DNA of 64,000 bases from Struthio camelus (Eukaryota; Chordata; Aves; Struthioniformes; Struthionidae): contig NC_090953.1 in NCBI RefSeq assembly GCF_040807025.1, positions 26,148,997-26,212,996 of the forward strand, in the 5' to 3' direction. Positions 13,131 through 64,000 of this stretch are shown here, piece by piece. The notes under the pieces were generated by a model. That model was given only the letters and a program-made list of their open reading frames with translations, ran no database searches and was not told the origin of the DNA. Each line of letters begins with the position of its first letter. Positions within the stretch are counted from its first letter, which is position 1. The translations under genes and the position numbers were made by a program.

Positions 13131-14690
13131 ATACTTTAGTTTACATAAGCAGTCAGATCTATCTACGATTCCTAGTTTTACCGATCCCTTTGCCATGTCA
13201 CAGTACAAGATAGTTCCCTGCCAGTCTTAAATGGTATATCTTATAATTATTCGTTAGCTGATTTTGCATCTCTTCTGGTGTTACCTTTGAACAACTTTTG
13301 TACTGCTGGCTGGAATAAACTGGTCTCTTTGCATTTCTTCAACTTTGTACAAAAAAACAGGGCTAAGGCAAGGTCAGATAAGATGTTCCACTTGCAGGGT
13401 GCACAGCCTTGCATGTTCTGCCCGCAAAAACTAGAGTATAATGGAAAGTGCCTTAACGCTTGCCTCCTGGTTGTGGAGGGTGGGCTCACATTGCAGCTAA
13501 GTAGCTACAACAGAGAGGACTGTCAATGCATTTCAGCTACAAAAGGCTGTCTGAGATGGCCGGAACAAGGCTTCAAAGGGGCAGGAAGATTTGCACAGAC
13601 CTAAGCTGAAAACCTGCACACACCACCACCCCGCCCCGGCCCCAGAAGTGGGCTTGCATAGTAGGAGCTTTCCTGAACTTCTCTGTCTGGAGGCCCGCCA
13701 TTTCACCAAGATCATCCTGCACCCACACTGCCAAAACGTTGCCTGTGCAGATCCAAGAGTCACACCCTAATTCTTGCAGAACAGCTCCAGGAGCATCAGC
13801 AGCATCCTGGCGCTCTTCTTTACTAAATCAAGAAGCCAGCACTGCAGGTATCAGCAGGCAGTACATGTGTAATGCTGCTTGTTGAAGCATGAAGCAAGTA
13901 ATTCTCCTTCTAGATGGCCACAGGATGGGAAAATGGAGTGCAGGTGGTTGATCTGCCCTTGGCAATTCAAGGAGAAATGCCTGTTAGGACTGTTCAACTG
14001 GTGGCTCTGCAGGATCTTAAGGAGGGGAAGACATAGGAAAAAAGTAACTAACAGAACTCAAACTAACAGAATATTGCCTCAAACTAACAGAATATTGAAG
14101 GAAAAAAAACAAAGCAAAGAAAAAGAAGCTTTTGTTGGAAAGCATATTAGCCAAAAGCAGAGTCTAGATGAGGCAGCAGCAACTCCACCTGGAAGGTATG
14201 AGGTAAGAGGAACCAAAGAGTCAGTGCAACTAGTATCACAAATGTTCTTAGTGAGGAGCAGCACAAGAGGCAAGCAAATGTATGTTGTACTGGACTGTCT
14301 CAAATTCCTAGACATCCACAGGGCTGAATACAAATGGAAAAGCACGTCCAAAGGAACAGCATTTACAGCTTCACAAGAGAGGAGGGAAGAAACCTGGAAT
14401 ACTGCTGATGGCAGACCTGGCACTGTGATGCAAAGTCATTGGGAAAGGGCTTTCCTGGAGACACAGCCAAGTATTAACACCCATAGCCAAAGGCAGTGAT
14501 GGCCTTGTCTGTAATGCTGCATCTAAAGGGATTTGATATTAGGGAACCCACACCCCTAGGGTGTCCCAGTCTGCTATTCCAAAGAGAGTTTGGATTAACA
14601 GCCTTCTGTAGCAGAGGCATAGAAACTCTGTGCTCATATTAAGGTTTCTGAAGTTCACTCATTAGTGTGATAGAAGAAACCAAACTAGGG
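13131..14690. other. Left arm, 3' flank of the three-exon gene
   Basis: Downstream of the gene's polyadenylation signal on the minus strand. No conserved coding pattern. Open frames such as 13879-14499 lack recognisable domains and are probably chance frames. The same sequence occurs at 62441-64000. Confidence 0.5.
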
Positions 14691-14696
14691 TTTATT
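14691..14696 (-). promoter_or_regulatory. Polyadenylation signal of the left-arm gene copy
   Basis: AATAAA on the minus strand (TTTATT on the plus strand), about 170 bp after the last stop codon. Confidence 0.6.
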
Positions 14697-14866
14697 GTCG
14701 TGTAACCTGATGCAAAAAGCTCTGGCTTAAACTTCAAATGCTGTCTCTGTCTTCCTCAAGCCTCCCCAGCACATTGCCTCCAAAGCAGGGAGGCGTGAAA
14801 GGCTGGTCTTGGTTTAAGGAGGGTTTCTAGCATGGCCTTCAAAGATCTTGATGTGGACACAGATGT

Positions 14867-16399
14867 CTAGTACGTGGACCTATGAATCTTTCCTGGGCTG
14901 GTAAGAGCATCTTGCTCACAGCCACGGAGGATAGATGAGAGGAGATGATGTGAAATTTCCTCTTCCATTTGTGCTGCTTTCTCTGAATAGATGGCCATCC
15001 CAGGGATGCTGATAGGAAGAAATCTGGTCCTTGGACGATTCTTCTTCAGTTTTCGGACCGGCATTTTCATTCTTTCTGGCCTTACAGCATCCTGATTGAG
15101 AAAGCTCTCGTTTCTGTATGTCGGTCCGAGCTTTTCTGCTACATGGCTTCCAGGGTTCAGCCCTGAACTGAGTTCAGTCAGAGGCTGGTGGCACTGATCT
15201 AAGATGGAATCAATTATCCCTCTCACCACTCTATCTTCCTCTTCTGAACTGTCCTCTGAGAGCACTGCCTTTTGATTCTTTTTTTTTTCAACCTTTTTCT
15301 TAATGAAGGAGTCCAGCTGCTGTTGCATGTGAGAAGTATTTTCAACGGGAAGTTTTACTATTTTATCTTTGGTGATTTTGTCATTAGAAGCTGGAGAAAA
15401 TGCCCTGTCATAAACTGGTAATTCAGCTTGCCTAAATCTGGTTTCTCCCAGTTTGGCAGCTTGCCTTGCTTCTCTGTCAATAAGCTTCTGGATCCTGGCT
15501 GAAAGTCCTGGCTCTGATTTGTCTGACATGCTGGATACCAAACACTTGCCAAAGTTATCAAAAACAATTGCTACAATCGCTCTAGCAACCAGTTGAATTT
15601 CTTCCTGGGGCGTTGGATGCAGAGCTGCAGAAGGTGCTATTCTTTCAGTGCTGCCAAACAATCTTCCACTAAACTCCAGGGGAGCCTCCCTTAAGATGTA
15701 AACAGACTGACCCAGCTCTTTCACCCTCTCGTACACCTCCCAGACCACACTCTCAGCTGCCTCAACAGTATCCTGTGCTTCTGGGGTTGTCTGCTCCTCA
15801 AATACATTTTTTAAAATGCTGTAGCTAGGATAGTCTCGCTTTCCACCCAAGTCAACACCACTGTTAATCCACCTGGGAAGCTTGGCATCTTTCCTTCCTA
15901 ATGGAGATTCAGAACAAGTTTGGCTCAAAAGCAACTTCTTTGGCAGCTCTGTGTTAGGTCCCATGCTTGTAATGGCCCTGTGAAAGCTGCAAAGATCCCG
16001 AGGCACCTTTCTTTTTCTCCATGCCTCCAATTCCAGAGACATTCAGGTCCTTCTGGGCAGTGATGGGAAAGATGGTTTTTGAGGCTGTAGAGGAGCTGTC
16101 TTCTCCCCTGCTATGGGGTTGAAACAACTTGGTGAGACGGTGGGCTTTATGCTTGTTCCTGGGACAACCTTCCGTGTGCTGCTGGAGGGCAGACTTTCCA
16201 ACAAACCATGTAGCTCCTCACTGCATAGGCTGCGGCTGCCAGAGTTGCCTGAAGAGAACTGGGGATCCTCCAAAACAGCATGACATTTCTCTTTACTTCT
16301 GGCTTCCCCATCTGACACAGCTGTATATAAGATTCCAGTCACTTCTGCCACAGCTTTTGTCAGTATAGCGTTAGTATTCAGTACTTCATCTAAAGCCAT
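14867..16399 (-). CDS. Last exon of the three-exon gene, left arm, with in-frame TGA
   Basis: Begins directly after an acceptor (TTCTGTTATAG) with ATG GCT and runs 118 codons (MALDEVLNTNAILTKAV) to a TGA at 16043-16045, then 391 more codons in the same frame to TAG. The long frame after the TGA suggests a fairly young nonsense change, or read-through. The protein is hydrophilic, with a Lys-rich, Ser/Glu-rich segment (KKKVEKKKNQ, SEDSSEEEDR). It has recurring amphipathic stretches such as AVAEVTGILY, VARAIVAIVFDNF, VVRGIIDSIL and HHLLSSILRG. This repeating pattern is what suggests an FSIP2-like identity, with low certainty. There is no signal peptide or membrane segment. Confidence 0.55.
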
Positions 16400-18424
16400 C
16401 TATAACAGAAACAGTTATTAACTGATGGGTGAATGCTTTCCTTTACTTAGATTTGTTTTCCTTTTCCCCACATTAAACTGCTCACTAGATGTCTTTCAAG
16501 CAGTCAAGCTTGAAAACAATGTGATCTCAACCCAGGAAGCAGCTGATTTCAAACAAAGACTGGCTATAGCTTAACGACCTGTCTGCATTTTGCAACCGCA
16601 AAAAAATGTTACTAGGGAGACATCACCTGGGCTGCACATGTCAATGGTGTTTCTAAAAATCAGTAAGATGAGATTTTCTAAATATAAGAGAACTGCACTG
16701 AATCTGAGGTCATGCTTTTGGATCTCAGTGTGGTAGACAACGGGTCAGGCCCCCATTTCCACTCTCCACTGCGAAGGGAGCCCTTGGACTGGCTTATGCA
16801 GAGATGTGCATGGTAAACCCCCACACTTAGTAAAATAAAGCCCCGGAGAAGGTGGTGTGCTGTGCACTGGCATGGCTGGGGCCAAGACAAGCTGAAGCTC
16901 TTTCCTGCAGACTGGTCTCGCTGGGAGGTGGAACCTGGTATCCTGTGGGTCAGGAAGGCCAGAGGATTCCAGGCCTGGGAAGTTTCCTGGGGAGATCCAC
17001 AAAGAGTACGGACTTCCTGGCCCTCCAGGGAAGGAAATCTTCACCCAGAACCCATGCGGAACCCATCCCACTGCTCCCCAGGAGCCAAGCGGTGCCTCTT
17101 GTCTTTGGAGAGGGAAGCCTGCACAAAGGCAGTTCTGGGTTCTGAAAGGGAGCTGGTCTTCTCGTGCCCTGCAGGTCTCCCTGGTGGTGGCATTAGATCA
17201 ACTGCCACTTCACAAAACACCTTGGCCAGGGATCACCACACAAATCCCATCAGCACAGCTGTCCCAGGGCTTGCCAGTACCCCCTTATGGTAGAGTGTCA
17301 GCTAGAAGAGAAATCTGAACACACACTGGTATTTGTGCCTCAGGATGTCTTCCAAAGGGCTACGAACAACAATTACGATTTCCAGATCTATCTGGTCTCT
17401 CATGAGAGCCCTGATACGCTGCTCACAGCAAGGCTGAGATCTCCCAGGCTGCTGGCTGCTGCCATGGGAATTATTCTTAAGAACTCAGAAGGTGGAGCTA
17501 ACTCCCTCTGATCTGGCAGGAGGCCCAAGCAAGTGTCCGCGGTAGCTCTAGAGCACTCAGCTCGCTGCAGCGTGCATAAGCAGCGTACTCAGCCAAGTGC
17601 TGGCAGCATCAGGTTGAGGGATGTTGCTGGTTTGGCTACTCACCAGAGGAAAAATCAGCAACGTGGAACATGGGGACATTTTGTGCAGCTAACTGATTTG
17701 TGCTAAGCGGGTCAGCCTGGAGCAGAAGTGGCCACCGAGAGCACCCAGGCACACCTTTGCCTCAGAACCTGCCTATGCCTTCTGTGAGAGAGACTGACTA
17801 CGGAAAACACCCACTTGTGGTCTCTGACAACCATCCTTGAAAGAGCGCACATCACAAACCAGCAAGGCAACATCTCCTCAGTGACCGAGCACCACTTACA
17901 AGCTGAGTGAAACTGCCGCTGGCATCCACCCAGCTCTGGTTTACTGGTCTCCCGGCAAGATCTCTCTGCGCAGTGTTTCATAAGCGGAAGTGGCTGCCTA
18001 GCCAGGGATGGAAAGCCACTGTGGAGCAGCACAGGGGAGAGAAGTGGAAAGGGGAGAGGATGAGAGTAAGGCAACAGGAAAAGCCACTCTCCAGAGAACT
18101 GCTGTTCCTGCTGACCGCCCTGCCTTTAGTTATGCTCAAGGGACGTTACCAGGCATTCCTGTTTTCCTGTAGCGTGCATCATACATTACTGCCTATCCCA
18201 GCAGTGAATTTGCCTCCCAGACACAGAGTGCAACACAAGCATGAAATACTGTAACCACCAGCACAGCGACGACATAATTTCCCATGCATATGTGTCTCCA
18301 CCGTGTCAATGAGGTACACTGGCCGCCAGGTGACTACTCCAAAAGGAAAGACAGACCTAACACCAGCGACATTTGACTATTCCACTGATGCAATTTTGGT
18401 GGAGCTGGAAAATGAGAAAGATAC
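16400..18424 (-). other. Intron between middle and last exon, left arm
   Basis: Lies between donor CAG|GTATCT and acceptor TTCTGTTATAG on the minus strand. Several short open frames occur (for example 17287-17511 on the plus strand), but none has recognised motifs. No mobile element is recognised. Confidence 0.5.
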
Positions 18425-18913
18425 CTGGGAAACCAGAGGCTTTTCTTCAACCATCTCTGGCTCCTTCCCTTTCGTTTTAAGCTTATGCCATGGAGGTGGC
18501 TCACATTTTGGTCTGGGTGGCAGTTTATCCAGTGGTGGTCTAGGCTTGGTTTTCAGTAGTGGAAGTGGCACAGATAGAGGCCTGGTCTGACTTTCCGCCC
18601 CAGGTGGCTTTGGCTCAGCCTCTCTGCGTCTCTGGGGTTTGTCAGGGAGGTGGCATCCATCTTCCATTGCTTCATCCAACACTTGGAAAACAACTTGACT
18701 GGCAAAATCTTGGAGGGCTGAGACTAATGCCTCTTCTTTGAGGCAATCAGGAGTGCCAGAGGGAGAGTGGCCAGGACAGTGGCAAGGCACATCAGGTGAG
18801 GTTGTTTTCTTCACGACACCTGTGATTCTTTTATCAAGTTCTTTGCTAGTGCCTGGTGGAGATGTCAGCATTGTCTTGAGAGGTGGGAAATCAGCTGACT
18901 TTTCAGAAACACT
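18425..18913 (-). CDS. Middle exon of the three-exon gene, left arm
   Basis: 163 codons, phase 0 at both ends, bounded by an acceptor (TTTCTCTTGCAG) and a donor (CAG|GTATCT). It encodes SVSEKSADFPPLKTMLTS at the start and KPLVSQ at the end. It contains a helical stretch EEALVSALQDFASQVVFQVL and then a long Pro- and Lys-rich segment (KTKPRPPLDKLPPRPK), likely disordered. No stop or frameshift. Splicing joins it to the last exon as VSQ then MALDEV. Confidence 0.6.
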
Positions 18914-20181
18914 CTGCAAGAGAAACAAGGAGGGTGAAGGTCTTACCAGAATAAACAAGAGCATGCATCAAAGGAAAATGACCTTTTAAGCCTGCAAACC
19001 ACAGAGGTGAAAGGAGGGAAGGCCCAATCTGTAATCCAAGCCTTGGTGAGCATTCAACGAGAGGTCAATTGGAAACTCTGTCTTTAAATCAGACAAGTTC
19101 AAATACTGACCCCAAGGTGGATTCAGACAGCCCTATGTTGTGGCCCAGACACCATCAAACGCTGCTCAGCATGTGCTTTCCCAGCACTCGCAGAGAGCTG
19201 GGCAGTGTGGGAACACAGCTGAGCTCATGACATAGGTGCCCTTGTGCCTCTCCAGGTGAGAGGGCAGGACCATGAGCATCAGACCAAGATTGCGGCTTTT
19301 GTTCATCTGCACATGCAGGGTTGCCAAAAATTGTAGTCCGATTTTCTCAGGAGATTTGCTTAAAGCCCTACCTTCCAGAAATGAGCGATTATAGATTGTG
19401 AGAGCTTCTGCTTTGGGATGCTTTTGTCTTCATAGCTGCAGGAAAACCACTTTGTTGGGGTGATCCACATCCACTCTGAAAGGCTCAGAACATAGCAGAA
19501 CTTACAAAACATAGCTCCGTGTCTATGTCTGTGTCAGTCTCTCTGTCTATGACTAGCTCTGTTCCCGGTTTAAAAACTTGCAGTTATTTAATGACTGGCT
19601 TCTGGGGAGTCTGTTTTGATAACTAACCAGGTGAGTCTAATCTAGAGCAAAACACCATTCACTTTCTCTGTTTCCAGGTGACAGTGCCGTACTTTTGAGC
19701 CATTTATAGCATTGAGACTGGTGGCGTTTTGAGCTTGCACTCACAGTGCACAGGCACTAAGCATGTGCTCAGGTTGTTGTGGGAGAAGGGCTTCTCTTCT
19801 GAAACAAAGGCTCTGTGAGATCCCTCAAAGTCTAGCTGTAGACCAAAGAGTCGGTATGGTATGATACTGTAAATCGCCTCCTGCCCATGCTGGGGCTCAG
19901 ATTTCAAGTGATGAAAGCCAAGAAGAGAAAGACTCCACCCTCTTCCTGTCCAGCTCCCTCATGCCCCAAACACATAGTGCTGGGTTCAGAGGAGGGGCTG
20001 ACAAGGAGCTGATTGTGTATACAGGTACGTGTGAGTCCACAGTGAAGAGGCTAAGGACATCTTGCTGTGTGTATCGCTATGCAACACAATACAGTTAGTT
20101 TCCAATGAAATCGGAGTGTGTCCGTGGTGGCTTTCCTCTTTGGGAGAGGTCTTAGTGCCAGGAGATTTAGACGAGACATAC
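18914..20181 (-). other. Intron between first and middle exon, left arm
   Basis: Lies between donor AAG|GTATGT and acceptor TTTCTCTTGCAG on the minus strand. No other feature is recognised. Confidence 0.5.
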
Positions 20182-20717
20182 CTTTGGGTGGAAAACCCTC
20201 ACCACTTCTTCCATCCACTCCCTCTCCTCCCTGCGTGCAATCTGGGCTGAAAATTTCTCCAACATGCTCCACTCAGGGCCCTGCCCAGCTTTGCTTGTGA
20301 CTTGTTTTTTCCTTTCTCTTCCTGAGCTGGGCAGGGCAGGGTAGTGGCTGGAGCAGAAATGACCCCGCTCTGTCCAACAGGAACACCTTTGAGACTCACT
20401 GACTGAGCCTGAGTTGAGCTCGTCATATACCACCATGACATCCCTTATTTGCTGGGCAGCTTCTTCCATTGCAGGCTGGAGGCTCTCACATCCATGTCGG
20501 CAAGGAAGTCCACAAAGTTGGCGAATTCCTCGGCAGCCGGGTGGGAGGGGGGAAAGGGGGCATGCTGCTCCTCCTTGGCGTTTGCTGTGGTGTTCCTCTC
20601 AAATATGCTCCAGGAGGAAACAGCTCTATGACACCATGACTCCTTTGGGATCTGCCATCCATGATGGGCCGGCAGTGTAAACTGGGTGCTCCAGTTAGTG
20701 GGCTTTTGGGATGACAT
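20182..20717 (-). CDS. First recognised exon of the three-exon gene, left arm, frameshifted
   Basis: Starts at ATG (MSSQKPTNWSTQFTLP), six bases after a pyrimidine tract ending TGTGCAG that could be an acceptor, with an in-frame TGA just upstream, so this ATG may be the true start. The frame is open to about LADMD, and then the sensible reading moves to another frame (ESLQPAMEEAAQQIRDVM) and stays open to a donor after HPK (AAG|GTATGT). The shift lies at about 20485-20490. The second part is acidic and helical (RREEREWMEEVV). The family is not recognised. Confidence 0.45.
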
Positions 20718-22639
20718 GTCTCACTGCACAGGAGCAAAGCAAAGCAGAGCATGTCATTCAGGAGGGGACTGGAAGGGCTGGAAAACCCATCACTCGGAGC
20801 CCCTGCAAAGTCGGTCACTTCTTGCAGCCCTCAGGGTAGACAAGCATTACGACTCCATTGTAAAGCCACTGCAGGAAATAAGCATGCTCTGGCTGGGGAA
20901 TAGACTACATATTGTAACCACTAAAACAAGGACACTTCACACTCCCCTCTTGCCTTTCACTTGCAGCTATCTACCTTTCAGATGTATTAATGTGCTGCAC
21001 CACACAGGACAGAAGAGCTGCTTGGACCCCCCTTGTAAGACAGGGGAAATATGATCGGCCACAGGTTGCAGGGTGAGGCACAGCCCTCTTCATGCTTTAT
21101 TTGCAAGAGTGTCCTTTCCCCTTCCTGAATTCTGTGAATAGACTGACAGAAGCTACACAAGATATAGAGAGTCTTGGACTCCCTCAGCTAACTGGGAGCC
21201 CAAGCCCTGCATCAGTGCACATTTGTGTGGGAGAGGCAGTGCAAAAAGCAGGGTAGAGTGCGCATGGAGGTGGAGGAGTGCTGAGTGCCTGTGAAAGGCT
21301 GAGGTATTTGGTAGGTGCCTCTCAGGATAAGGTGGGTGGGGGAGACTGGAAGAGATGCTGAGGACCCAAAACCGTGGGTCTCTGGGCTCAGGAGGATTAT
21401 CTGTACTTGACAAGTTTGGCCCACACGTGCCGAGGCAGAGGTGTGGTGTGGGAGAGAGTGTGTGGAAGCAGAGGGCCTGGGTTTGGGGAGCCACACAGTG
21501 GGCTATATTTATCTGGGTGCCTGCAAGTGGGGAACAACAATGAGAGATCATCTCTGTGGGGTGACGATAGAGGGGCCACAGTCTTCAATGCTGGGATTAG
21601 AAATACAAGTCAGAAAGCTGTTTTAGCTTCAGGGCATTTTCCTTGAGCAGCACTGCAGTTCCTCTGAGCCTGAGGCAGGAGGACACAGGGGTTTGGCAGG
21701 GACCTCACTGAGGCCAGGATTTATAACTGACATTCAACCCACCCCCTCCACCAGCCTAGAGACGCTGCTGGGCAAAGGCAAGAGGTGAAGCCACGCGATA
21801 GATATGCACTAGGTGTATCTTTAGCAAGGATTGTGGTACTTCAAGCAGGAAAACCATCGCTGCAACAAGATGGAGCCTCAAGGAATGTGTCCCAGGGACA
21901 GCATGAACATAATGTGACCCTCCGCGCGTACTGCAAATGAGAAAACGCCCTCCAACCTCAAAGAGCTACAGGACATTTGCTATGATGAGACTTCCCCTTT
22001 CCAACCATCAGTCCTACTTACAGCTACCTCGCAAGGGCTGCTGTCAGCAGGTAACACAGACTTGTTTCCCATGATTTCTTTCTGAACCAGGGACTGGATC
22101 ATGCAGTCTCTTTCAATCATAAGTCAGACAGGGTTTTCTCCGAACACACCTTGCAGTCATAAAAGGGAAGCCTGACTTGAAAGCCAGGGGAAGCCAGACG
22201 ACTGAGCACGTCCAAAGCTAACCGTTTCCTCGAAGGGTTCCTACTACCGTGACATCAGAGACTGTGATGTCATAAACAGCTAACCAGGTGAGCACATCAG
22301 GCTGGGCAGCACTGGCACCACCCCCTTGAAGGCCAATGGGCACCACCAGGCTCGTCTTTGCTCTAGCAGATGGGGGTGACCTGAGGAAATGGTCCAAAGC
22401 AGTTTCCCAAAAGAGCACAGAAACCTGCTTTGCTGTCCCACCCAAAGCTGGAGTTTGTCATTTCTGTTGCGTTTCATGAAATCTGGGCACCTGCAGCCCA
22501 GCCATCAGCTCTCCGGGGGGGGTTCCTTTGCTTTCTTCTAGTCAGGTTCTTTAGCATCGAAGCTTTTAATCGCAGCTAGTGGACATATGACTGTGGGTGC
22601 AGTCACAGGAGAGTGATCAGTTCGCAAACGGCTCATCTC
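20718..22639. other. 5' flank of the left-arm gene copy
   Basis: No further exon can be supported. It holds the CRE-like inverted repeat at 22250-22272. The open frames have no domain signatures. Confidence 0.4.
22250..22272. promoter_or_regulatory. Inverted pair of CRE-like sites, left arm
   Basis: TGACATCA and TGATGTCA form a perfect 8-bp inverted repeat around a 7-bp spacer. Each half differs by one base from the cAMP-response element TGACGTCA. It lies 1.5 kb upstream of the first recognised exon. A regulatory role is inference. Confidence 0.35.
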
Positions 22640-23540
22640 CACAAACATGAAAGAACTCAAGAGAAACAATGGCAGGTGGGGGAGCCCCCAAAACCTAGTG
22701 AGCAAAATGGTCACCCTGCCCCAGCTCCTCTCTGAACCGCAGTTCAGGTGTGAAACCCGTGAGTTACAGGAGCGGCTCTTCTGGGTGCCTCTTGGACTCA
22801 TAGGCAGGAGGGAGAAGAGATTTTCTGAGATTGTTCAAAACTTGTTATGGGATGTTTGGGGGCAGGAATCAAAGGCAGGGAGAGGGAGGGGCCTAGGTGA
22901 TATGGGGAGGATCAGGCATGGGAAAATAGAGGGATAAGAGGTTTAAAATGGGCTGGAGGTGTGGAGACTGGGGCTGGTCAGTAGGCTTGGCCAGCCATGC
23001 CATGGCACCTGATCACTGCAGTCTGACCTCTCTTCTCATTAAACTCCATTTCTAACGTGTGTGTATGAAAGTCTACGTGGTGAGACAAGGGGTCCGGGGC
23101 CTGCATGTTTGTGGTGCCAGCAAGGGGAGCGAGTGAGGGTACACACGTGTGGTTGTGAGGGGATATGAGACCAGGCTAGCGGCCAAATAGCTGAAGTGGT
23201 TTGGAAACCAGGTGTGTGTGTGTTGGGTGTGTGTGTGTGTGTGCGCGTGCGTGCGTGCACACCTCTGTGCAGGAGGCAGCTAGGGACAAGAGCATCCGGG
23301 GCCATCTCTGGGGAGACTGAGTGTCTAAAGCCCACCTACTGTGGGATCCTCACTGAGTGCGTAGGTGAGTGAGAAGCGGAGGGAGCAGGGAGGGGGCGTG
23401 TTTGTGTGTGTGCGTACCAGAAGCAAGAGAGGGGCTGTGGGCCTCAGGGGGCTCACAAGCCCAGGTTAGCAGCAACTGGGGAGAGCAAGGGTCTGGGACA
23501 AGCTACTAGGAGACTCGCTGTCTAAGCCCAGGAACTGAAG
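22640..23540. repeat. Diverged duplicate of the inner-arm and spacer unit, left arm
   Basis: The block with AAAATAGAGGGAT, then GGTGCCAGCA and GAGTGAGGGT, is paralogous to 36700-37305 in the same orientation. Clear divergence shows this duplication is older than the palindrome. It ends in GT-rich sequence with a TG-repeat run at about 23213-23262. Confidence 0.6.
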
Positions 23541-23619
23541 GGATCCACATTGTATAAATGAATGTATTTCCCGCTAATGGACCTTTCCCCTGATAAGCCA
23601 AAGAAGGAAAGAGAGGGGG

Positions 23620-23905
23620 GCTGTTAGTGCTATTTGTGCCTGTGTGCGTGTTGAGTGTGTATGTCCAGGCAGGTCCATGTGCCTGGCTGTGTGCGCACAC
23701 ATGCACACACTGTGTGCACGCTGACTATGGACCATACGTGTTTGTTGGCCCAGCTGTGTGTATGTGCATGTGCACGCTGCATGTGCGTGTCTGTGCGGGA
23801 CTCTGGGCTCAGCCATGTGTCCATGCATGCACACACTGTGCATGCATGCCACACTGCGTGTGGGCATCTGTGTCCCGGTCACGTGTCCATGTATGCACAC
23901 TCTGT
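23620..23905. repeat. GT/CA-rich array with ATGCATGC blocks, left arm
   Basis: Irregular alternating purine-pyrimidine DNA (TGTGTGCATG, ATGCATGCACAC and similar) for nearly 300 bp. The sequence type favours Z-DNA. It creates several long but meaningless open frames rich in His, Thr, Cys and Val. Confidence 0.6.
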
Positions 23906-25284
23906 CCATCCGTGAGTGCCCCTATGGGCACAGCGCACCACCCACTGCTGTGGGACCCAGGCGCTGCGGCAGCAGCCACCCCTGCTGGCCAGGGCCGGGT
24001 GCCTCCCGGACCCTCGAGTCTGCCAAAGTCCCTCACCAAAGTGCCATCAGCTCTGCAGCAGGTGGCCTCTGGCTCCCGGATTCCCTTGCAAAGGCTGTAC
24101 CACACGCAGTGCTCCTAACCAGAGGCGTCCCCCCAGCATCATTTGCAGCATAGGAAAGTCCAGTAGCAGCTTTCCACATGGGCTGCAATCTGGGGGAGCC
24201 CAAAGATCAGCTGGGCTGCAACCTGCCTTCATTCACCGGCACACCTTGCTTGTGAGGAAGCAGCCAAAGAGGTCTGCGGGCTCCACACATACTGCTGCCC
24301 CGCCTGTGGAAGCATTTCCTTTCTCCGCTCTGGCGGCGGCAGTGGCAGAATCCCTTCTACTCTCTGCTACCGCAGCCATCCCCTCTACCCCTGCACAGGA
24401 GCATGAGGTCTCTTGAGGTTCTCCTCAAGCCTACACTTCGTCCATAACACAAGCATTCACTTTTGCCCTCTCATTCCTACGATGGAAGGACAGTTGTTCC
24501 AGTCTACCATCACTCCAAGCTAGGCTGCCCAGTCAGTCTGCAAGGCAGCTTACATGCGGCCATGCAACCGTGGGATTCTCGCGTGTGCATTTGACTTCTG
24601 CATGTCCTTCAAAATAGGAGAAAGCTCGATAAGAGTGCAGTTTAACCTTGCACTTTCTTAGGAAAAGAGCAAAAAACAAAAGAGAGAATAACTCTGCATT
24701 GCATTTTGTGTCATTCATGACAACTCCTTGACTTCAATCCCAAAAACAATAGCCATGAGGAAAACTAACTTCGTAACAGCCGTCATTGCAGCTGCTGAAT
24801 GTATCCGTTCAGGGAGCTGCACCCAAACCTGCCCATGACCATGCTTACAGGTAGACTCACTGCAATGGAGAGAGGGGAGGTATTCCCTCCTCAGTTTCTG
24901 GCCCAGGGGGGTAACAGGGTCCCAGTTTCGGGACAGAGGGGAATGCTTTTCTGTGCAGAGCAGGCACCTAACAGAGGTCGGAGGAGAAAGAAGCACACCA
25001 CAAGTCTCCAGCTATGCTGCACCACATCTTTAATGAGAAGGAAGGAAAAAAAGCAGTGAAGCAGTACAGAGACCAAGAAACACATGTGCAGGGTTCAGTG
25101 AGACACAGAGAATTGCCCGTTTCCCCAGGACAAGTGCCATGCAAAGCACTTGCCTTTTCCCACTCCAAATCTACACTGTGGCAATCATTTCCCACCAACA
25201 GCAATTCCTAACCCTGATACTCTCCCCTCGGCATGGAGGCTCTGTAGGGCAGCATTCTGACACTGTCTCGCATAACATCCTCAT
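23906..25284. other. Left arm, no gene seen
   Basis: GC-rich to about 24400, then mixed composition. Open frames overlap on both strands without motifs. The mirror is at 51847-53225. Confidence 0.4.
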
Positions 25285-26071: not shown

Positions 26072-26140
26072 GTGTTCACTAACTAATCAGTATATACTAA
26101 TTCAGTATATAATAGCAGGACTTGTGTCTTTCGCAATAAC

Positions 26141-50991: not shown

Positions 50992-51059
50992 GTTATTGCG
51001 AAAGACACAAGTCCTGCTATTATATACTGAATTAGTATATACTGATTAGTTAGTGAACA

Positions 51060-53225: not shown

Positions 53226-53511
53226 ACAGAGTGTGCATACATGGACACGTGACCGGGACACAGATGCCCACACGCAGTGTGGCATGCATGCACAGTGTGT
53301 GCATGCATGGACACATGGCTGAGCCCAGAGTCCCGCACAGACACGCACATGCAGCGTGCACATGCACATACACACAGCTGGGCCAACAAACACGTATGGT
53401 CCATAGTCAGCGTGCACACAGTGTGTGCATGTGTGCGCACACAGCCAGGCACATGGACCTGCCTGGACATACACACTCAACACGCACACAGGCACAAATA
53501 GCACTAACAGC
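53226..53511. repeat. CA/GT-rich array with ATGCATGC blocks, right arm
   Basis: Mirror of 23620-23905. Confidence 0.6.
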
Positions 53512-53519
53512 CCCCCTCT

Positions 53520-54480
53520 CTTTCCTTCTTTGGCTTATCAGGGGAAAGGTCCATTAGCGGGAAATACATTCATTTATACAATGTGGATCCCTTCAGTTCC
53601 TGGGCTTAGACAGCGAGTCTCCTAGTAGCTTGTCCCAGACCCTTGCTCTCCCCAGTTGCTGCTAACCTGGGCTTGTGAGCCCCCTGAGGCCCACAGCCCC
53701 TCTCTTGCTTCTGGTACGCACACACACAAACACGCCCCCTCCCTGCTCCCTCCGCTTCTCACTCACCTACGCACTCAGTGAGGATCCCACAGTAGGTGGG
53801 CTTTAGACACTCAGTCTCCCCAGAGATGGCCCCGGATGCTCTTGTCCCTAGCTGCCTCCTGCACAGAGGTGTGCACGCACGCACGCGCACACACACACAC
53901 ACACCCAACACACACACACCTGGTTTCCAAACCACTTCAGCTATTTGGCCGCTAGCCTGGTCTCATATCCCCTCACAACCACACGTGTGTACCCTCACTC
54001 GCTCCCCTTGCTGGCACCACAAACATGCAGGCCCCGGACCCCTTGTCTCACCACGTAGACTTTCATACACACACGTTAGAAATGGAGTTTAATGAGAAGA
54101 GAGGTCAGACTGCAGTGATCAGGTGCCATGGCATGGCTGGCCAAGCCTACTGACCAGCCCCAGTCTCCACACCTCCAGCCCATTTTAAACCTCTTATCCC
54201 TCTATTTTCCCATGCCTGATCCTCCCCATATCACCTAGGCCCCTCCCTCTCCCTGCCTTTGATTCCTGCCCCCAAACATCCCATAACAAGTTTTGGACAA
54301 TCTCAGAAAATCTCTTCTCCCTCCTGCCTATGAGTCCAAGAGGCACCCAGAAGAGCCGCTCCTGTAACTCACGGGTTTCACACCTGAACTGCGGTTCAGA
54401 GAGGAGCTGGGGCAGGGTGACCATTTTGCTCACTAGGTTTTGGGGGCTCCCCCACCTGCCATTGTTTCTCTTGAGTTCTT
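53520..54480. repeat. Unit paralogous to 39240-40382, right arm
   Basis: Shares ordered blocks with the spacer and inner arm in the same orientation. An older, diverged duplication. Confidence 0.6.
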
Positions 54481-54858
54481 TCATGTTTGTGGAGATGAGC
54501 CGTTTGCGAACTGATCACTCTCCTGTGACTGCACCCACAGTCATATGTCCACTAGCTGCGATTAAAAGCTTCGATGCTAAAGAACCTGACTAGAAGAAAG
54601 CAAAGGAACCCCCCCCGGAGAGCTGATGGCTGGGCTGCAGGTGCCCAGATTTCATGAAACGCAACAGAAATGACAAACTCCAGCTTTGGGTGGGACAGCA
54701 AAGCAGGTTTCTGTGCTCTTTTGGGAAACTGCTTTGGACCATTTCCTCAGGTCACCCCCATCTGCTAGAGCAAAGACGAGCCTGGTGGTGCCCATTGGCC
54801 TTCAAGGGGGTGGTGCCAGTGCTGCCCAGCCTGATGTGCTCACCTGGTTAGCTGTTTA

Positions 54859-54881
54859 TGACATCACAGTCTCTGATGTCA
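54859..54881. promoter_or_regulatory. Inverted pair of CRE-like sites, right arm
   Basis: TGACATCA, a 7-bp spacer, then TGATGTCA. It lies 1.5 kb upstream of the first recognised exon of the right-arm gene. Mirror of 22250-22272. Confidence 0.35.
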
Positions 54882-56413
54882 CGGTAGTAGGAACCCTTCG
54901 AGGAAACGGTTAGCTTTGGACGTGCTCAGTCGTCTGGCTTCCCCTGGCTTTCAAGTCAGGCTTCCCTTTTATGACTGCAAGGTGTGTTCGGAGAAAACCC
55001 TGTCTGACTTATGATTGAAAGAGACTGCATGATCCAGTCCCTGGTTCAGAAAGAAATCATGGGAAACAAGTCTGTGTTACCTGCTGACAGCAGCCCTTGC
55101 GAGGTAGCTGTAAGTAGGACTGATGGTTGGAAAGGGGAAGTCTCATCGTAGCAAATGTCCTGTAGCTCTTTGAGGTTGGAGGGCGTTTTCTCATTTGCAG
55201 TACGCGCGGAGGGTCACATTATGTTCATGCTGTCCCTGGGACACATTCCTTGAGGCTCCATCTTGTTGCAGCGATGGTTTTCCTGCTTGAAGTACCACAA
55301 TCCTTGCTAAAGATACACCTAGTGCATATCTATCGCGTGGCTTCACCTCTTGCCTTTGCCCAGCAGCGTCTCTAGGCTGGTGGAGGGGGTGGGTTGAATG
55401 TCAGTTATAAATCCTGGCCTCAGTGAGGTCCCTGCCAAACCCCTGTGTCCTCCTGCCTCAGGCTCAGAGGAACTGCAGTGCTGCTCAAGGAAAATGCCCT
55501 GAAGCTAAAACAGCTTTCTGACTTGTATTTCTAATCCCAGCATTGAAGACTGTGGCCCCTCTATCGTCACCCCACAGAGATGATCTCTCATTGTTGTTCC
55601 CCACTTGCAGGCACCCAGATAAATATAGCCCACTGTGTGGCTCCCCAAACCCAGGCCCTCTGCTTCCACACACTCTCTCCCACACCACACCTCTGCCTCG
55701 GCACGTGTGGGCCAAACTTGTCAAGTACAGATAATCCTCCTGAGCCCAGAGACCCACGGTTTTGGGTCCTCAGCATCTCTTCCAGTCTCCCCCACCCACC
55801 TTATCCTGAGAGGCACCTACCAAATACCTCAGCCTTTCACAGGCACTCAGCACTCCTCCACCTCCATGCGCACTCTACCCTGCTTTTTGCACTGCCTCTC
55901 CCACACAAATGTGCACTGATGCAGGGCTTGGGCTCCCAGTTAGCTGAGGGAGTCCAAGACTCTCTATATCTTGTGTAGCTTCTGTCAGTCTATTCACAGA
56001 ATTCAGGAAGGGGAAAGGACACTCTTGCAAATAAAGCATGAAGAGGGCTGTGCCTCACCCTGCAACCTGTGGCCGATCATATTTCCCCTGTCTTACAAGG
56101 GGGGTCCAAGCAGCTCTTCTGTCCTGTGTGGTGCAGCACATTAATACATCTGAAAGGTAGATAGCTGCAAGTGAAAGGCAAGAGGGGAGTGTGAAGTGTC
56201 CTTGTTTTAGTGGTTACAATATGTAGTCTATTCCCCAGCCAGAGCATGCTTATTTCCTGCAGTGGCTTTACAATGGAGTCGTAATGCTTGTCTACCCTGA
56301 GGGCTGCAAGAAGTGACCGACTTTGCAGGGGCTCCGAGTGATGGGTTTTCCAGCCCTTCCAGTCCCCTCCTGAATGACATGCTCTGCTTTGCTTTGCTCC
56401 TGTGCAGTGAGAC
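54882..56413. other. 5' flank of the right-arm gene copy
   Basis: No exon can be supported here. Mirror of 20718-22249. Confidence 0.4.
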
Positions 56414-56949
56414 ATGTCATCCCAAAAGCCCACTAACTGGAGCACCCAGTTTACACTGCCGGCCCATCATGGATGGCAGATCCCAAAGGAGTCATGGTGT
56501 CATAGAGCTGTTTCCTCCTGGAGCATATTTGAGAGGAACACCACAGCAAACGCCAAGGAGGAGCAGCATGCCCCCTTTCCCCCCTCCCACCCGGCTGCCG
56601 AGGAATTCGCCAACTTTGTGGACTTCCTTGCCGACATGGATGTGAGAGCCTCCAGCCTGCAATGGAAGAAGCTGCCCAGCAAATAAGGGATGTCATGGTG
56701 GTATATGACGAGCTCAACTCAGGCTCAGTCAGTGAGTCTCAAAGGTGTTCCTGTTGGACAGAGCGGGGTCATTTCTGCTCCAGCCACTACCCTGCCCTGC
56801 CCAGCTCAGGAAGAGAAAGGAAAAAACAAGTCACAAGCAAAGCTGGGCAGGGCCCTGAGTGGAGCATGTTGGAGAAATTTTCAGCCCAGATTGCACGCAG
56901 GGAGGAGAGGGAGTGGATGGAAGAAGTGGTGAGGGTTTTCCACCCAAAG
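56414..56949 (+). CDS. First recognised exon of the three-exon gene, right arm, frameshifted
   Basis: Mirror of 20182-20717. The ATG is at 56414 and the frame change lies between about 56641 and 56646. The donor after HPK is AAG|GTATGT at 56949/56950. The frame from 56641 on is open to the donor and acidic near its end (RREEREWMEE). Confidence 0.45.
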
Positions 56950-58217
56950 GTATGTCTCGTCTAAATCTCCTGGCACTAAGACCTCTCCCAAAGAGGAAAG
57001 CCACCACGGACACACTCCGATTTCATTGGAAACTAACTGTATTGTGTTGCATAGCGATACACACAGCAAGATGTCCTTAGCCTCTTCACTGTGGACTCAC
57101 ACGTACCTGTATACACAATCAGCTCCTTGTCAGCCCCTCCTCTGAACCCAGCACTATGTGTTTGGGGCATGAGGGAGCTGGACAGGAAGAGGGTGGAGTC
57201 TTTCTCTTCTTGGCTTTCATCACTTGAAATCTGAGCCCCAGCATGGGCAGGAGGCGATTTACAGTATCATACCATACCGACTCTTTGGTCTACAGCTAGA
57301 CTTTGAGGGATCTCACAGAGCCTTTGTTTCAGAAGAGAAGCCCTTCTCCCACAACAACCTGAGCACATGCTTAGTGCCTGTGCACTGTGAGTGCAAGCTC
57401 AAAACGCCACCAGTCTCAATGCTATAAATGGCTCAAAAGTACGGCACTGTCACCTGGAAACAGAGAAAGTGAATGGTGTTTTGCTCTAGATTAGACTCAC
57501 CTGGTTAGTTATCAAAACAGACTCCCCAGAAGCCAGTCATTAAATAACTGCAAGTTTTTAAACCGGGAACAGAGCTAGTCATAGACAGAGAGACTGACAC
57601 AGACATAGACACGGAGCTATGTTTTGTAAGTTCTGCTATGTTCTGAGCCTTTCAGAGTGGATGTGGATCACCCCAACAAAGTGGTTTTCCTGCAGCTATG
57701 AAGACAAAAGCATCCCAAAGCAGAAGCTCTCACAATCTATAATCGCTCATTTCTGGAAGGTAGGGCTTTAAGCAAATCTCCTGAGAAAATCGGACTACAA
57801 TTTTTGGCAACCCTGCATGTGCAGATGAACAAAAGCCGCAATCTTGGTCTGATGCTCATGGTCCTGCCCTCTCACCTGGAGAGGCACAAGGGCACCTATG
57901 TCATGAGCTCAGCTGTGTTCCCACACTGCCCAGCTCTCTGCGAGTGCTGGGAAAGCACATGCTGAGCAGCGTTTGATGGTGTCTGGGCCACAACATAGGG
58001 CTGTCTGAATCCACCTTGGGGTCAGTATTTGAACTTGTCTGATTTAAAGACAGAGTTTCCAATTGACCTCTCGTTGAATGCTCACCAAGGCTTGGATTAC
58101 AGATTGGGCCTTCCCTCCTTTCACCTCTGTGGTTTGCAGGCTTAAAAGGTCATTTTCCTTTGATGCATGCTCTTGTTTATTCTGGTAAGACCTTCACCCT
58201 CCTTGTTTCTCTTGCAG
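56950..58217 (+). other. Intron 1, right arm
   Basis: Bounded by GTATGT and TTTCTCTTGCAG. Nothing else is recognised. Confidence 0.5.
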
Positions 58218-58706
58218 AGTGTTTCTGAAAAGTCAGCTGATTTCCCACCTCTCAAGACAATGCTGACATCTCCACCAGGCACTAGCAAAGAACTTGATAA
58301 AAGAATCACAGGTGTCGTGAAGAAAACAACCTCACCTGATGTGCCTTGCCACTGTCCTGGCCACTCTCCCTCTGGCACTCCTGATTGCCTCAAAGAAGAG
58401 GCATTAGTCTCAGCCCTCCAAGATTTTGCCAGTCAAGTTGTTTTCCAAGTGTTGGATGAAGCAATGGAAGATGGATGCCACCTCCCTGACAAACCCCAGA
58501 GACGCAGAGAGGCTGAGCCAAAGCCACCTGGGGCGGAAAGTCAGACCAGGCCTCTATCTGTGCCACTTCCACTACTGAAAACCAAGCCTAGACCACCACT
58601 GGATAAACTGCCACCCAGACCAAAATGTGAGCCACCTCCATGGCATAAGCTTAAAACGAAAGGGAAGGAGCCAGAGATGGTTGAAGAAAAGCCTCTGGTT
58701 TCCCAG
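58218..58706 (+). CDS. Middle exon of the three-exon gene, right arm
   Basis: 163 codons, phase 0 at both ends, identical to the left-arm exon by translation. A helical segment (ALVSALQDFASQVVFQVL) precedes a Pro/Lys-rich, probably disordered tail. The acceptor TTTCTCTTGCAG is at 58217 and the donor GTATCT at 58707. Confidence 0.6.
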
Positions 58707-60731
58707 GTATCTTTCTCATTTTCCAGCTCCACCAAAATTGCATCAGTGGAATAGTCAAATGTCGCTGGTGTTAGGTCTGTCTTTCCTTTTGGAGTAGTCA
58801 CCTGGCGGCCAGTGTACCTCATTGACACGGTGGAGACACATATGCATGGGAAATTATGTCGTCGCTGTGCTGGTGGTTACAGTATTTCATGCTTGTGTTG
58901 CACTCTGTGTCTGGGAGGCAAATTCACTGCTGGGATAGGCAGTAATGTATGATGCACGCTACAGGAAAACAGGAATGCCTGGTAACGTCCCTTGAGCATA
59001 ACTAAAGGCAGGGCGGTCAGCAGGAACAGCAGTTCTCTGGAGAGTGGCTTTTCCTGTTGCCTTACTCTCATCCTCTCCCCTTTCCACTTCTCTCCCCTGT
59101 GCTGCTCCACAGTGGCTTTCCATCCCTGGCTAGGCAGCCACTTCCGCTTATGAAACACTGCGCAGAGAGATCTTGCCGGGAGACCAGTAAACCAGAGCTG
59201 GGTGGATGCCAGCGGCAGTTTCACTCAGCTTGTAAGTGGTGCTCGGTCACTGAGGAGATGTTGCCTTGCTGGTTTGTGATGTGCGCTCTTTCAAGGATGG
59301 TTGTCAGAGACCACAAGTGGGTGTTTTCCGTAGTCAGTCTCTCTCACAGAAGGCATAGGCAGGTTCTGAGGCAAAGGTGTGCCTGGGTGCTCTCGGTGGC
59401 CACTTCTGCTCCAGGCTGACCCGCTTAGCACAAATCAGTTAGCTGCACAAAATGTCCCCATGTTCCACGTTGCTGATTTTTCCTCTGGTGAGTAGCCAAA
59501 CCAGCAACATCCCTCAACCTGATGCTGCCAGCACTTGGCTGAGTACGCTGCTTATGCACGCTGCAGCGAGCTGAGTGCTCTAGAGCTACCGCGGACACTT
59601 GCTTGGGCCTCCTGCCAGATCAGAGGGAGTTAGCTCCACCTTCTGAGTTCTTAAGAATAATTCCCATGGCAGCAGCCAGCAGCCTGGGAGATCTCAGCCT
59701 TGCTGTGAGCAGCGTATCAGGGCTCTCATGAGAGACCAGATAGATCTGGAAATCGTAATTGTTGTTCGTAGCCCTTTGGAAGACATCCTGAGGCACAAAT
59801 ACCAGTGTGTGTTCAGATTTCTCTTCTAGCTGACACTCTACCATAAGGGGGTACTGGCAAGCCCTGGGACAGCTGTGCTGATGGGATTTGTGTGGTGATC
59901 CCTGGCCAAGGTGTTTTGTGAAGTGGCAGTTGATCTAATGCCACCACCAGGGAGACCTGCAGGGCACGAGAAGACCAGCTCCCTTTCAGAACCCAGAACT
60001 GCCTTTGTGCAGGCTTCCCTCTCCAAAGACAAGAGGCACCGCTTGGCTCCTGGGGAGCAGTGGGATGGGTTCCGCATGGGTTCTGGGTGAAGATTTCCTT
60101 CCCTGGAGGGCCAGGAAGTCCGTACTCTTTGTGGATCTCCCCAGGAAACTTCCCAGGCCTGGAATCCTCTGGCCTTCCTGACCCACAGGATACCAGGTTC
60201 CACCTCCCAGCGAGACCAGTCTGCAGGAAAGAGCTTCAGCTTGTCTTGGCCCCAGCCATGCCAGTGCACAGCACACCACCTTCTCCGGGGCTTTATTTTA
60301 CTAAGTGTGGGGGTTTACCATGCACATCTCTGCATAAGCCAGTCCAAGGGCTCCCTTCGCAGTGGAGAGTGGAAATGGGGGCCTGACCCGTTGTCTACCA
60401 CACTGAGATCCAAAAGCATGACCTCAGATTCAGTGCAGTTCTCTTATATTTAGAAAATCTCATCTTACTGATTTTTAGAAACACCATTGACATGTGCAGC
60501 CCAGGTGATGTCTCCCTAGTAACATTTTTTTGCGGTTGCAAAATGCAGACAGGTCGTTAAGCTATAGCCAGTCTTTGTTTGAAATCAGCTGCTTCCTGGG
60601 TTGAGATCACATTGTTTTCAAGCTTGACTGCTTGAAAGACATCTAGTGAGCAGTTTAATGTGGGGAAAAGGAAAACAAATCTAAGTAAAGGAAAGCATTC
60701 ACCCATCAGTTAATAACTGTTTCTGTTATAG
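58707..60731 (+). other. Intron 2, right arm
   Basis: Bounded by GTATCT and TTCTGTTATAG. Nothing else is recognised. Confidence 0.5.
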
Positions 60732-62264
60732 ATGGCTTTAGATGAAGTACTGAATACTAACGCTATACTGACAAAAGCTGTGGCAGAAGTGACTGGAATC
60801 TTATATACAGCTGTGTCAGATGGGGAAGCCAGAAGTAAAGAGAAATGTCATGCTGTTTTGGAGGATCCCCAGTTCTCTTCAGGCAACTCTGGCAGCCGCA
60901 GCCTATGCAGTGAGGAGCTACATGGTTTGTTGGAAAGTCTGCCCTCCAGCAGCACACGGAAGGTTGTCCCAGGAACAAGCATAAAGCCCACCGTCTCACC
61001 AAGTTGTTTCAACCCCATAGCAGGGGAGAAGACAGCTCCTCTACAGCCTCAAAAACCATCTTTCCCATCACTGCCCAGAAGGACCTGAATGTCTCTGGAA
61101 TTGGAGGCATGGAGAAAAAGAAAGGTGCCTCGGGATCTTTGCAGCTTTCACAGGGCCATTACAAGCATGGGACCTAACACAGAGCTGCCAAAGAAGTTGC
61201 TTTTGAGCCAAACTTGTTCTGAATCTCCATTAGGAAGGAAAGATGCCAAGCTTCCCAGGTGGATTAACAGTGGTGTTGACTTGGGTGGAAAGCGAGACTA
61301 TCCTAGCTACAGCATTTTAAAAAATGTATTTGAGGAGCAGACAACCCCAGAAGCACAGGATACTGTTGAGGCAGCTGAGAGTGTGGTCTGGGAGGTGTAC
61401 GAGAGGGTGAAAGAGCTGGGTCAGTCTGTTTACATCTTAAGGGAGGCTCCCCTGGAGTTTAGTGGAAGATTGTTTGGCAGCACTGAAAGAATAGCACCTT
61501 CTGCAGCTCTGCATCCAACGCCCCAGGAAGAAATTCAACTGGTTGCTAGAGCGATTGTAGCAATTGTTTTTGATAACTTTGGCAAGTGTTTGGTATCCAG
61601 CATGTCAGACAAATCAGAGCCAGGACTTTCAGCCAGGATCCAGAAGCTTATTGACAGAGAAGCAAGGCAAGCTGCCAAACTGGGAGAAACCAGATTTAGG
61701 CAAGCTGAATTACCAGTTTATGACAGGGCATTTTCTCCAGCTTCTAATGACAAAATCACCAAAGATAAAATAGTAAAACTTCCCGTTGAAAATACTTCTC
61801 ACATGCAACAGCAGCTGGACTCCTTCATTAAGAAAAAGGTTGAAAAAAAAAAGAATCAAAAGGCAGTGCTCTCAGAGGACAGTTCAGAAGAGGAAGATAG
61901 AGTGGTGAGAGGGATAATTGATTCCATCTTAGATCAGTGCCACCAGCCTCTGACTGAACTCAGTTCAGGGCTGAACCCTGGAAGCCATGTAGCAGAAAAG
62001 CTCGGACCGACATACAGAAACGAGAGCTTTCTCAATCAGGATGCTGTAAGGCCAGAAAGAATGAAAATGCCGGTCCGAAAACTGAAGAAGAATCGTCCAA
62101 GGACCAGATTTCTTCCTATCAGCATCCCTGGGATGGCCATCTATTCAGAGAAAGCAGCACAAATGGAAGAGGAAATTTCACATCATCTCCTCTCATCTAT
62201 CCTCCGTGGCTGTGAGCAAGATGCTCTTACCAGCCCAGGAAAGATTCATAGGTCCACGTACTAG
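60732..62264 (+). CDS. Last exon of the three-exon gene, right arm, with in-frame TGA
   Basis: Mirror of 14867-16399. 118 codons run to TGA at 61086-61088, then 391 codons follow in the same frame to TAG at 62262-62264. The codon after the TGA is ATG, so a predictor may call two genes here. The open frame and the common acceptor argue for one exon. Confidence 0.55.
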
Positions 62265-62434
62265 ACATCTGTGTCCACATCAAGATCTTTGAAGGCCATG
62301 CTAGAAACCCTCCTTAAACCAAGACCAGCCTTTCACGCCTCCCTGCTTTGGAGGCAATGTGCTGGGGAGGCTTGAGGAAGACAGAGACAGCATTTGAAGT
62401 TTAAGCCAGAGCTTTTTGCATCAGGTTACACGAC

Positions 62435-62440
62435 AATAAA
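62435..62440 (+). promoter_or_regulatory. Polyadenylation signal of the right-arm gene copy
   Basis: AATAAA about 170 bp after the last stop codon. Confidence 0.6.
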
Positions 62441-64000
62441 CCCTAGTTTGGTTTCTTCTATCACACTAATGAGTGAACTTCAGAAACCTTAATATGAGCA
62501 CAGAGTTTCTATGCCTCTGCTACAGAAGGCTGTTAATCCAAACTCTCTTTGGAATAGCAGACTGGGACACCCTAGGGGTGTGGGTTCCCTAATATCAAAT
62601 CCCTTTAGATGCAGCATTACAGACAAGGCCATCACTGCCTTTGGCTATGGGTGTTAATACTTGGCTGTGTCTCCAGGAAAGCCCTTTCCCAATGACTTTG
62701 CATCACAGTGCCAGGTCTGCCATCAGCAGTATTCCAGGTTTCTTCCCTCCTCTCTTGTGAAGCTGTAAATGCTGTTCCTTTGGACGTGCTTTTCCATTTG
62801 TATTCAGCCCTGTGGATGTCTAGGAATTTGAGACAGTCCAGTACAACATACATTTGCTTGCCTCTTGTGCTGCTCCTCACTAAGAACATTTGTGATACTA
62901 GTTGCACTGACTCTTTGGTTCCTCTTACCTCATACCTTCCAGGTGGAGTTGCTGCTGCCTCATCTAGACTCTGCTTTTGGCTAATATGCTTTCCAACAAA
63001 AGCTTCTTTTTCTTTGCTTTGTTTTTTTTCCTTCAATATTCTGTTAGTTTGAGGCAATATTCTGTTAGTTTGAGTTCTGTTAGTTACTTTTTTCCTATGT
63101 CTTCCCCTCCTTAAGATCCTGCAGAGCCACCAGTTGAACAGTCCTAACAGGCATTTCTCCTTGAATTGCCAAGGGCAGATCAACCACCTGCACTCCATTT
63201 TCCCATCCTGTGGCCATCTAGAAGGAGAATTACTTGCTTCATGCTTCAACAAGCAGCATTACACATGTACTGCCTGCTGATACCTGCAGTGCTGGCTTCT
63301 TGATTTAGTAAAGAAGAGCGCCAGGATGCTGCTGATGCTCCTGGAGCTGTTCTGCAAGAATTAGGGTGTGACTCTTGGATCTGCACAGGCAACGTTTTGG
63401 CAGTGTGGGTGCAGGATGATCTTGGTGAAATGGCGGGCCTCCAGACAGAGAAGTTCAGGAAAGCTCCTACTATGCAAGCCCACTTCTGGGGCCGGGGCGG
63501 GGTGGTGGTGTGTGCAGGTTTTCAGCTTAGGTCTGTGCAAATCTTCCTGCCCCTTTGAAGCCTTGTTCCGGCCATCTCAGACAGCCTTTTGTAGCTGAAA
63601 TGCATTGACAGTCCTCTCTGTTGTAGCTACTTAGCTGCAATGTGAGCCCACCCTCCACAACCAGGAGGCAAGCGTTAAGGCACTTTCCATTATACTCTAG
63701 TTTTTGCGGGCAGAACATGCAAGGCTGTGCACCCTGCAAGTGGAACATCTTATCTGACCTTGCCTTAGCCCTGTTTTTTTGTACAAAGTTGAAGAAATGC
63801 AAAGAGACCAGTTTATTCCAGCCAGCAGTACAAAAGTTGTTCAAAGGTAACACCAGAAGAGATGCAAAATCAGCTAACGAATAATTATAAGATATACCAT
63901 TTAAGACTGGCAGGGAACTATCTTGTACTGTGACATGGCAAAGGGATCGGTAAAACTAGGAATCGTAGATAGATCTGACTGCTTATGTAAACTAAAGTAT
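62441..64000. other. Right arm, 3' flank of the three-exon gene, to window end
   Basis: Mirror of 13131-14690. No gene is supported. Identity to the left arm continues to the last base. Confidence 0.5.

Follow-up and report, generated by a model that had tools for sequence, protein, structure and literature searches.

How a palindrome with arms of tens of kilobases has arisen, and why its two arms are almost identical, are the questions raised by a stretch of ostrich (Struthio camelus) DNA on NC_090953.1, a contig labelled C12 in this study. The window, that is, the whole stretch of 64,000 nucleotides analysed here (C12:26148997-26212996), was described in a first-pass annotation as a giant near-perfect palindrome of the type characteristic of ampliconic parts of sex chromosomes. 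Large near-perfect palindromes are indeed mostly treated as a sex-chromosome phenomenon, and gene conversion is said to shield genes from decay there. From the assembly, we consider that the palindrome at this locus is most likely autosomal and young, and that it most likely formed by inverted duplication along the border of an amplicon region. Palindromes are known as a kind, and the interest of this one lies in its likely autosomal setting, in the polarity of its junctions, and in its tie to an amplified gene family. A gene-bearing and likely autosomal palindrome with datable arms, one inner junction of which can be polarised from nearby relatives, would illustrate that one rearrangement is enough to produce such a structure, with no need for the protection that conversion provides.

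Extent and divergence of the palindrome

When the window was aligned with itself by blastn, one long inverted pair was found (13131-37305 against 64000-39789), comprising 24,213 aligned columns with four mismatches and 39 gap columns in two openings. Such an inverted self-match far exceeds chance, and the assembly does contain the palindrome. The arms are about twice as long as had been reported, and the limits at 13131 and 64000 are only cuts made by the window. By adding the flanking DNA of C12 (blastn self-alignment and MAFFT), we located the outer boundaries, which the annotation had correctly placed beyond the window, at 26138970 and 26236153; the left arm spans C12:26138970-26186301 (47,332 bp) and the right arm C12:26188785-26236153 (47,369 bp). 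The palindrome totals ~97 kb and encloses the entire window, and arms ending near the window ends are ruled out by this flanking alignment.

Over the full arms (MAFFT, excluding 74 bases per arm that read N), the differences are 18 mismatches, one 1-bp indel, and one length difference of 38 bp (2 x 19), the last because a 19-bp tandem repeat has 2.6 copies in one arm and 4.6 in the other. The arm divergence is hence 0.038% (18 differences over ~47.3 kb). With arms more than 99.9% identical around a small spacer of 2,483 bp, the palindrome has the form of the ampliconic palindromes of sex chromosomes. With an avian substitution rate near 2e-9 per site and year, and in the absence of gene conversion, the divergence suggests an age of ~0.1 million years; at such an age, the palindrome could still be polymorphic.

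Alternatively, the palindrome might be older, though also autosomal, with its arms kept alike by arm-to-arm conversion as on the mammalian Y and X. The arm divergence is of the same order as that of palindrome P6 on the human Y (~0.02%, PMC3723533), and the tandem array next to the palindrome is strongly homogenised, its 18 units being 1-19 mismatches apart per 6.85 kb. Furthermore, a stretch of 22 bp in a long interspersed nuclear element (LINE; 7249-7270, mirrored at C12:26218857-26218878) holds five of the 18 mismatches; there, the right arm has the variant of another LINE copy within the arms. The cluster is explained by a short ectopic exchange with another LINE copy after the duplication, in either direction. 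We nonetheless regard an older, converted palindrome as unlikely. The arm mismatches are not patchy, and the 14 mismatch events (the cluster being counted once) are compatible with a uniform spread (Kolmogorov-Smirnov p 0.11; longest gap P 0.18). Also, both of the arm differences that were polarised (two of the 18; see below) look like changes private to the left arm. No observation demands conversion between the arms, although it may have acted; a young duplication would explain the arm identity.

Junctions, flanks, and the proposed duplication

We searched the genome (262 contigs, 1,451,902,618 bases in total) with 1.5 kb of the spacer as the probe and obtained at least 54 matches, all listed ones being on C12; the best 40 of 135 candidates were scored, and the counts are hence lower bounds. 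Among the matches listed are the spacer itself, eight further full-length places (26.517-26.669 Mb, spaced by 19.8-25.0 kb), and 15 that cover the first 530 bases of the probe, are mostly 14-17 kb apart, and reach 26.913 Mb; these 23 relatives are all inverted with respect to the spacer of the window. Also listed are 28 weaker matches (78-81%) in the other orientation and two at 80% inside the arms. One full-length and one partial unit were sampled, and both share the spacer together with inner-arm sequence.

Relatives of the spacer allow the inner junctions to be compared (Table 1). The junction of the spacer with the right arm is old, and the records that carry it represent eight distinct places on C12 (L002-L008 and L031, with L030 being the same place as L002); in the unit of 15.5 kb, as at the end of the contig, the spacer sequence breaks off before this junction is reached. 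The junction of the left arm with the spacer is, in contrast, novel. An 8-base direct repeat with a period of 9 is present there and is without counterpart in two relatives (L032 and L033), to which this comparison is confined. One old and one new inner junction, as read from the spacer relatives, form the signature of an inverted duplication; indeed, the spacer is unduplicated, one inner junction is native, and the far end is joined to other sequence. The two outer flanks also differ, in that the left arm meets single-copy-looking DNA, of which no second copy was found among the matches listed in the genome search, while the right arm meets a 6.86-kb tandem array that starts at the last bases of the arm (C12:26236148-26360000; L016-L028). 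Furthermore, a polarity test covering two of the 18 arm differences showed the right arm to share the base of the relatives in both cases: the right-arm base was found in nine of nine informative records (eight places) for one difference and in the one relative (1/1) for the other.

The palindrome probably originated in a recent segmental duplication, inverted and most likely autosomal, at the inner edge of the array region toward the end of C12; this would accommodate the old and new inner junctions, the differing flanks, the direct repeat at the novel junction, the bases that the right arm shares with the relatives, a mismatch spread compatible with uniform, and the location of the sex markers on other contigs (C40 and C41; see below). 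Human inverted duplications have spacers of 766-70,466 bp (median 3,428; PMC3907307), a range that includes the length found here. We propose that one event placed an inverted copy of ~49.9 kb (arm and spacer) next to the original. The copying or joining would have turned round at the inner end of the arm, re-entered 2.48 kb further on, and then run back across the spacer and the arm, with the inverted copy terminating against the 6.86-kb tandem array. The spacer would correspond to the 2.48 kb by which the two turning points are offset, and the resulting order would be the flank and left arm in place, followed by the inverted copy of arm and spacer and then by the array. As the mechanism, an inverted template switch, fold-back, or unequal sister fusion may be considered; a template switch or unequal sister fusion would give this order directly, and fold-back would do so if the spacer was later flipped. 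Within the window, the event would likely have doubled one coding gene together with two tRNA genes, and it would likely seed further amplification via unequal recombination.

Several points weigh against this account. The palindrome is known here from the assembled sequence, the right-hand neighbourhood was read up to C12:26.36 Mb and sampled beyond 26.51 Mb, and the LINE patch described above shows that conversion-like exchange does happen here. A frame for an olfactory receptor that includes an in-frame start, furthermore, seems to cross the left outer junction and is truncated at the right one, which is suggestive of a frame continuous through the left outer junction. Its alignment was reached by a fraction 0.049 of random controls; the receptor piece across this junction had no match of note in Pfam or PDB, and a genome search with the junction returned only the locus itself and part of the arm. 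Continuity of the receptor frame would point, weakly, to the left arm as the original, with the old inner junction being on the right arm. The junctions would then point different ways, and a simple fold-back would need a later flip of the spacer, as has been seen, rarely, by arm-to-arm exchange in human Y palindrome P6 (PMC3723533). An inverted template switch would yield both the outer and the inner junction patterns.

Human fold-back inverted duplications (PMC3907307) likewise consist of two inverted copies around a spacer of a few kilobases that is unduplicated by the event, and the end of the inverted copy is likewise joined to other sequence. The human cases are, however, large rearrangements in patients, typically beside terminal deletions, whereas the arm here is 47 kb and belongs to a reference assembly. 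Unlike in those cases, moreover, it is the side of the inverted copy that holds the old inner junction here, which would fit a template switch or a spacer that has since flipped.

A false inverted duplication, produced in the assembly by a chimeric join or by merged haplotypes, would also give arms of very high identity, and the palindrome does lie in repeat-rich sequence close to a contig end; C12 ends (at 26,918,268) within repeats, with no run of telomere repeats at its end. Such an artefact is nonetheless improbable, given the substitutions and the tandem-repeat length difference between the 47-kb arms, the presence of a spacer, and the short direct repeat at the novel junction. Two unlike outer flanks are also not expected from a simple mirrored misjoin, and none of the spacer matches listed is on a spare contig.

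Sex markers and the identity of C12

That the palindrome is an ampliconic one of the W or Z chromosome, as initially suggested, gains from its general resemblance to the palindromes of duck chrW (38 palindromes of 15.2-345.5 kb, PMC7787181). Sex linkage is, however, not borne out by the two marker families on which we judged it. The genome search gave five DM-domain matches, three within 101 kb on C41 and two on C8; those on C41 form a DMRT-type cluster, which is absent from the match lists of C40 and C12. Among the 29 FGF matches, two FGF10-like exons score equally on C40 and C41 (C40:52.6 Mb and C41:72.1 Mb), and C12 bears a different FGF gene at 12.89 Mb. No DM-domain or FGF10-like match was found on C12 in this search. 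From bird synteny, we take C41 to be the Z and C40 to be probably the W, with FGF10 read as present on both sex chromosomes; C40 could alternatively be another haplotype. Ratite Z and W share a large, little-differentiated part, and C40 and C41 resemble such a pair or, again, an alternative haplotype. Because the sex-chromosome marker families lie on other contigs, C12 is most likely an autosome, though it may instead be a neo-sex chromosome. A palindrome of the W or Z is, on these grounds, very improbable.

In other respects, sex-chromosome palindromes such as P6 of the human Y (PMC3723533) and those of duck W (PMC7787181) likewise have large, near-identical arms amid arrays or repeats, and human ones often carry genes in their arms, as do the arms on C12. 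The differences are that C12 carries none of the sex markers tested and that its arm mismatches, being compatible with a uniform spread, have so far given no evidence of conversion between the arms. Among the literature matches listed, no account of such autosomal palindromes in birds was found, which is not proof of absence.

We also considered whether C12 is homologous to chromosome 12 or 9 of the chicken, and this is unsupported by Wnt and collagen IV matches: of the 62 Wnt matches, none is on C12 (those read as WNT5A/7A-like are on C14), and the 20 collagen IV matches are all on C1, C9, and C11.

Genes, repeats, and neighbourhood

Table 1. Features of the window (positions counted from its first base) with the strand and the basis of each assignment.
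Feature	Position	Strand	Basis
Left arm (first 10,027 bases left of window)	1..37305	+	blastn self-alignment, full-arm MAFFT
CR1-type LINE, 1009-codon open frame, endonuclease and reverse transcriptase	5350..8379	+	ORF, Pfam
Olfactory-receptor gene, two overlapping frames (broken), left arm	9437..10410	+	ORF, Pfam
391-codon open exon, putative protein-coding gene, left-arm copy	14867..16042	-	ORF; dN/dS vs C16 relative
Second open frame (196 codons), left-arm copy, weak match to DUF4702	18377..18967	-	Pfam
Truncated copy of 1009-codon LINE, left arm (mirror 48885-50161)	26971..28247	+	self-alignment, ORF
19-bp tandem repeat, 2.6 copies, left arm	31518..31567		repeat scan and arm alignment
tRNA-Met (cat), left arm	33330..33402	-	two programs
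tRNA-Gly (tcc), left arm	36241..36313	+	two programs
Novel junction, left arm / spacer	37305..37306		contiguous in 0/13 fetched related records
Spacer, single-copy within palindrome, 2,483 bp, holds tRNA-Gly gene	37306..39788		self-alignment, MAFFT
tRNA-Gly (tcc), spacer	37521..37593	-	two programs
Old junction, spacer / right arm	39788..39789		contiguous in 9/13 fetched related records
Right arm, inverted copy (extends 23,157 bases past window)	39789..64000	-	self-alignment, MAFFT
tRNA-Gly (tcc), right arm	40781..40853	-	two programs
tRNA-Met (cat), right arm	43692..43764	+	two programs
19-bp tandem repeat, 4.6 copies, right arm	45527..45614		repeat scan and arm alignment
Second open frame (196 codons), right-arm copy	58164..58754	+	ORF, genome profile search
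391-codon open exon, right-arm copy, identical to left	61089..62264	+	ORF, arm alignment

The arms had been noted to carry a possibly testis-related gene and tRNA genes, and we indeed found an exon that is most likely protein-coding, together with mirrored tRNA genes (Table 1; ORF, open reading frame). When a 4-kb gene block (window 15000-19000) was used as a probe (best 40 of 161 candidates scored, at least 165 matches), both arms matched at 100% and relatives elsewhere at 66-80%. These relatives occupy at least 32 places ~12.8 kb apart on C16 (8.445-8.843 Mb, from the rows for query 667-1471) and at least five places on C18 (1.93, 2.20, and 2.63 Mb), three of which are 5.57 kb apart. In one C16 relative (L037; 1,301 bases), the reading frame stays open over 433 codons. 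The alignment of this relative with the arm exon contains no stop and gives a ratio of nonsynonymous to synonymous substitution rates (dN/dS) of 0.49 (NG86, 249 aligned codons; bootstrap 0.36-0.69, with 0/500 at 1 or above). Given this ratio and the lack of a stop, the family is most likely protein-coding and under purifying constraint, as judged from the one C16 copy compared, and it is amplified on other contigs, which are probably autosomal.

The idea that the arm gene is FSIP2 or another named testis gene had no support from Pfam, PDB, or a protein collection: Pfam gave only sub-threshold matches, PDB none that was convincing, and no match was found among 6,188 candidates of the protein collection. 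The second open frame matched PF15774 (DUF4702) with E 2.6e-5 and 23.8 bits, under the 27-bit cut-off, and a DUF4702 search of the genome gave two matches only, those of both arms (E 0.028, under cut-off). When three frames of one strand were scanned across 13131-22130, only the DUF4702 match came up again. At C16:2064161-2064757, far from the C16 array, there is a lone 72% relative of the second frame, perhaps part of a parent gene.

In chicken dot chromosomes, testis-expressed amplicons are found at the boundaries of pericentromeric heterochromatin (PMC9974502), and they are gene-bearing autosomal units adjoining array-rich DNA, as the palindrome on C12 may be. C12 is, unlike those, a contig of 26.9 Mb (26,918,268 bp) and not a dot chromosome, and the gene on C12 is doubled by a palindrome, whereas its C16 relatives are in tandem. 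Since the gene family is amplified on at least two other contigs, the causes of the amplification become testable. We would only tentatively suggest that the arm gene belongs to a family amplifying repeatedly on autosomes and that the young palindrome is an amplicon at its birth. Copy-number races, usually associated with sex chromosomes, might then have an autosomal equivalent here, with germ-line conflict or selection for dosage as the driving force.

Five tRNA genes were found in the window, a Met and a Gly gene in each arm and one Gly gene in the spacer. One of the four arm mismatches within the window is inside tRNA-Met (33395, mirror 43699), and the Rfam score of this gene is 51.8 bits in the left arm and 58.0 bits in the right arm. 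As for the LINEs, which we take to be of CR1 type, copies at 937-2411, 6986-8460, 26971-28247, and 28968-29763 are 95-98% identical; such near-identical copies, one with an open frame of 1009 codons, suggest recent LINE activity.

Just left of the palindrome and outside the arms lies a broken olfactory-receptor gene, and an MZT2 exon is found ~24 kb left of the palindrome (Pfam MOZART2 E 2.3e-13; PDB chains of MZT2). On the other side, further arrays extend from C12:26.236 Mb toward the contig end. The tandem array adjoining the right arm has a period of 6,853-6,864 bp, with 18 complete units in the fetched stretch, and its GC content and CpG observed/expected ratio are 0.61 and 0.52, against 0.49 and 0.24 in the arms. 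This array is macrosatellite-like, and part of its 6.86-kb unit resembles the LINE copies at about 71%.

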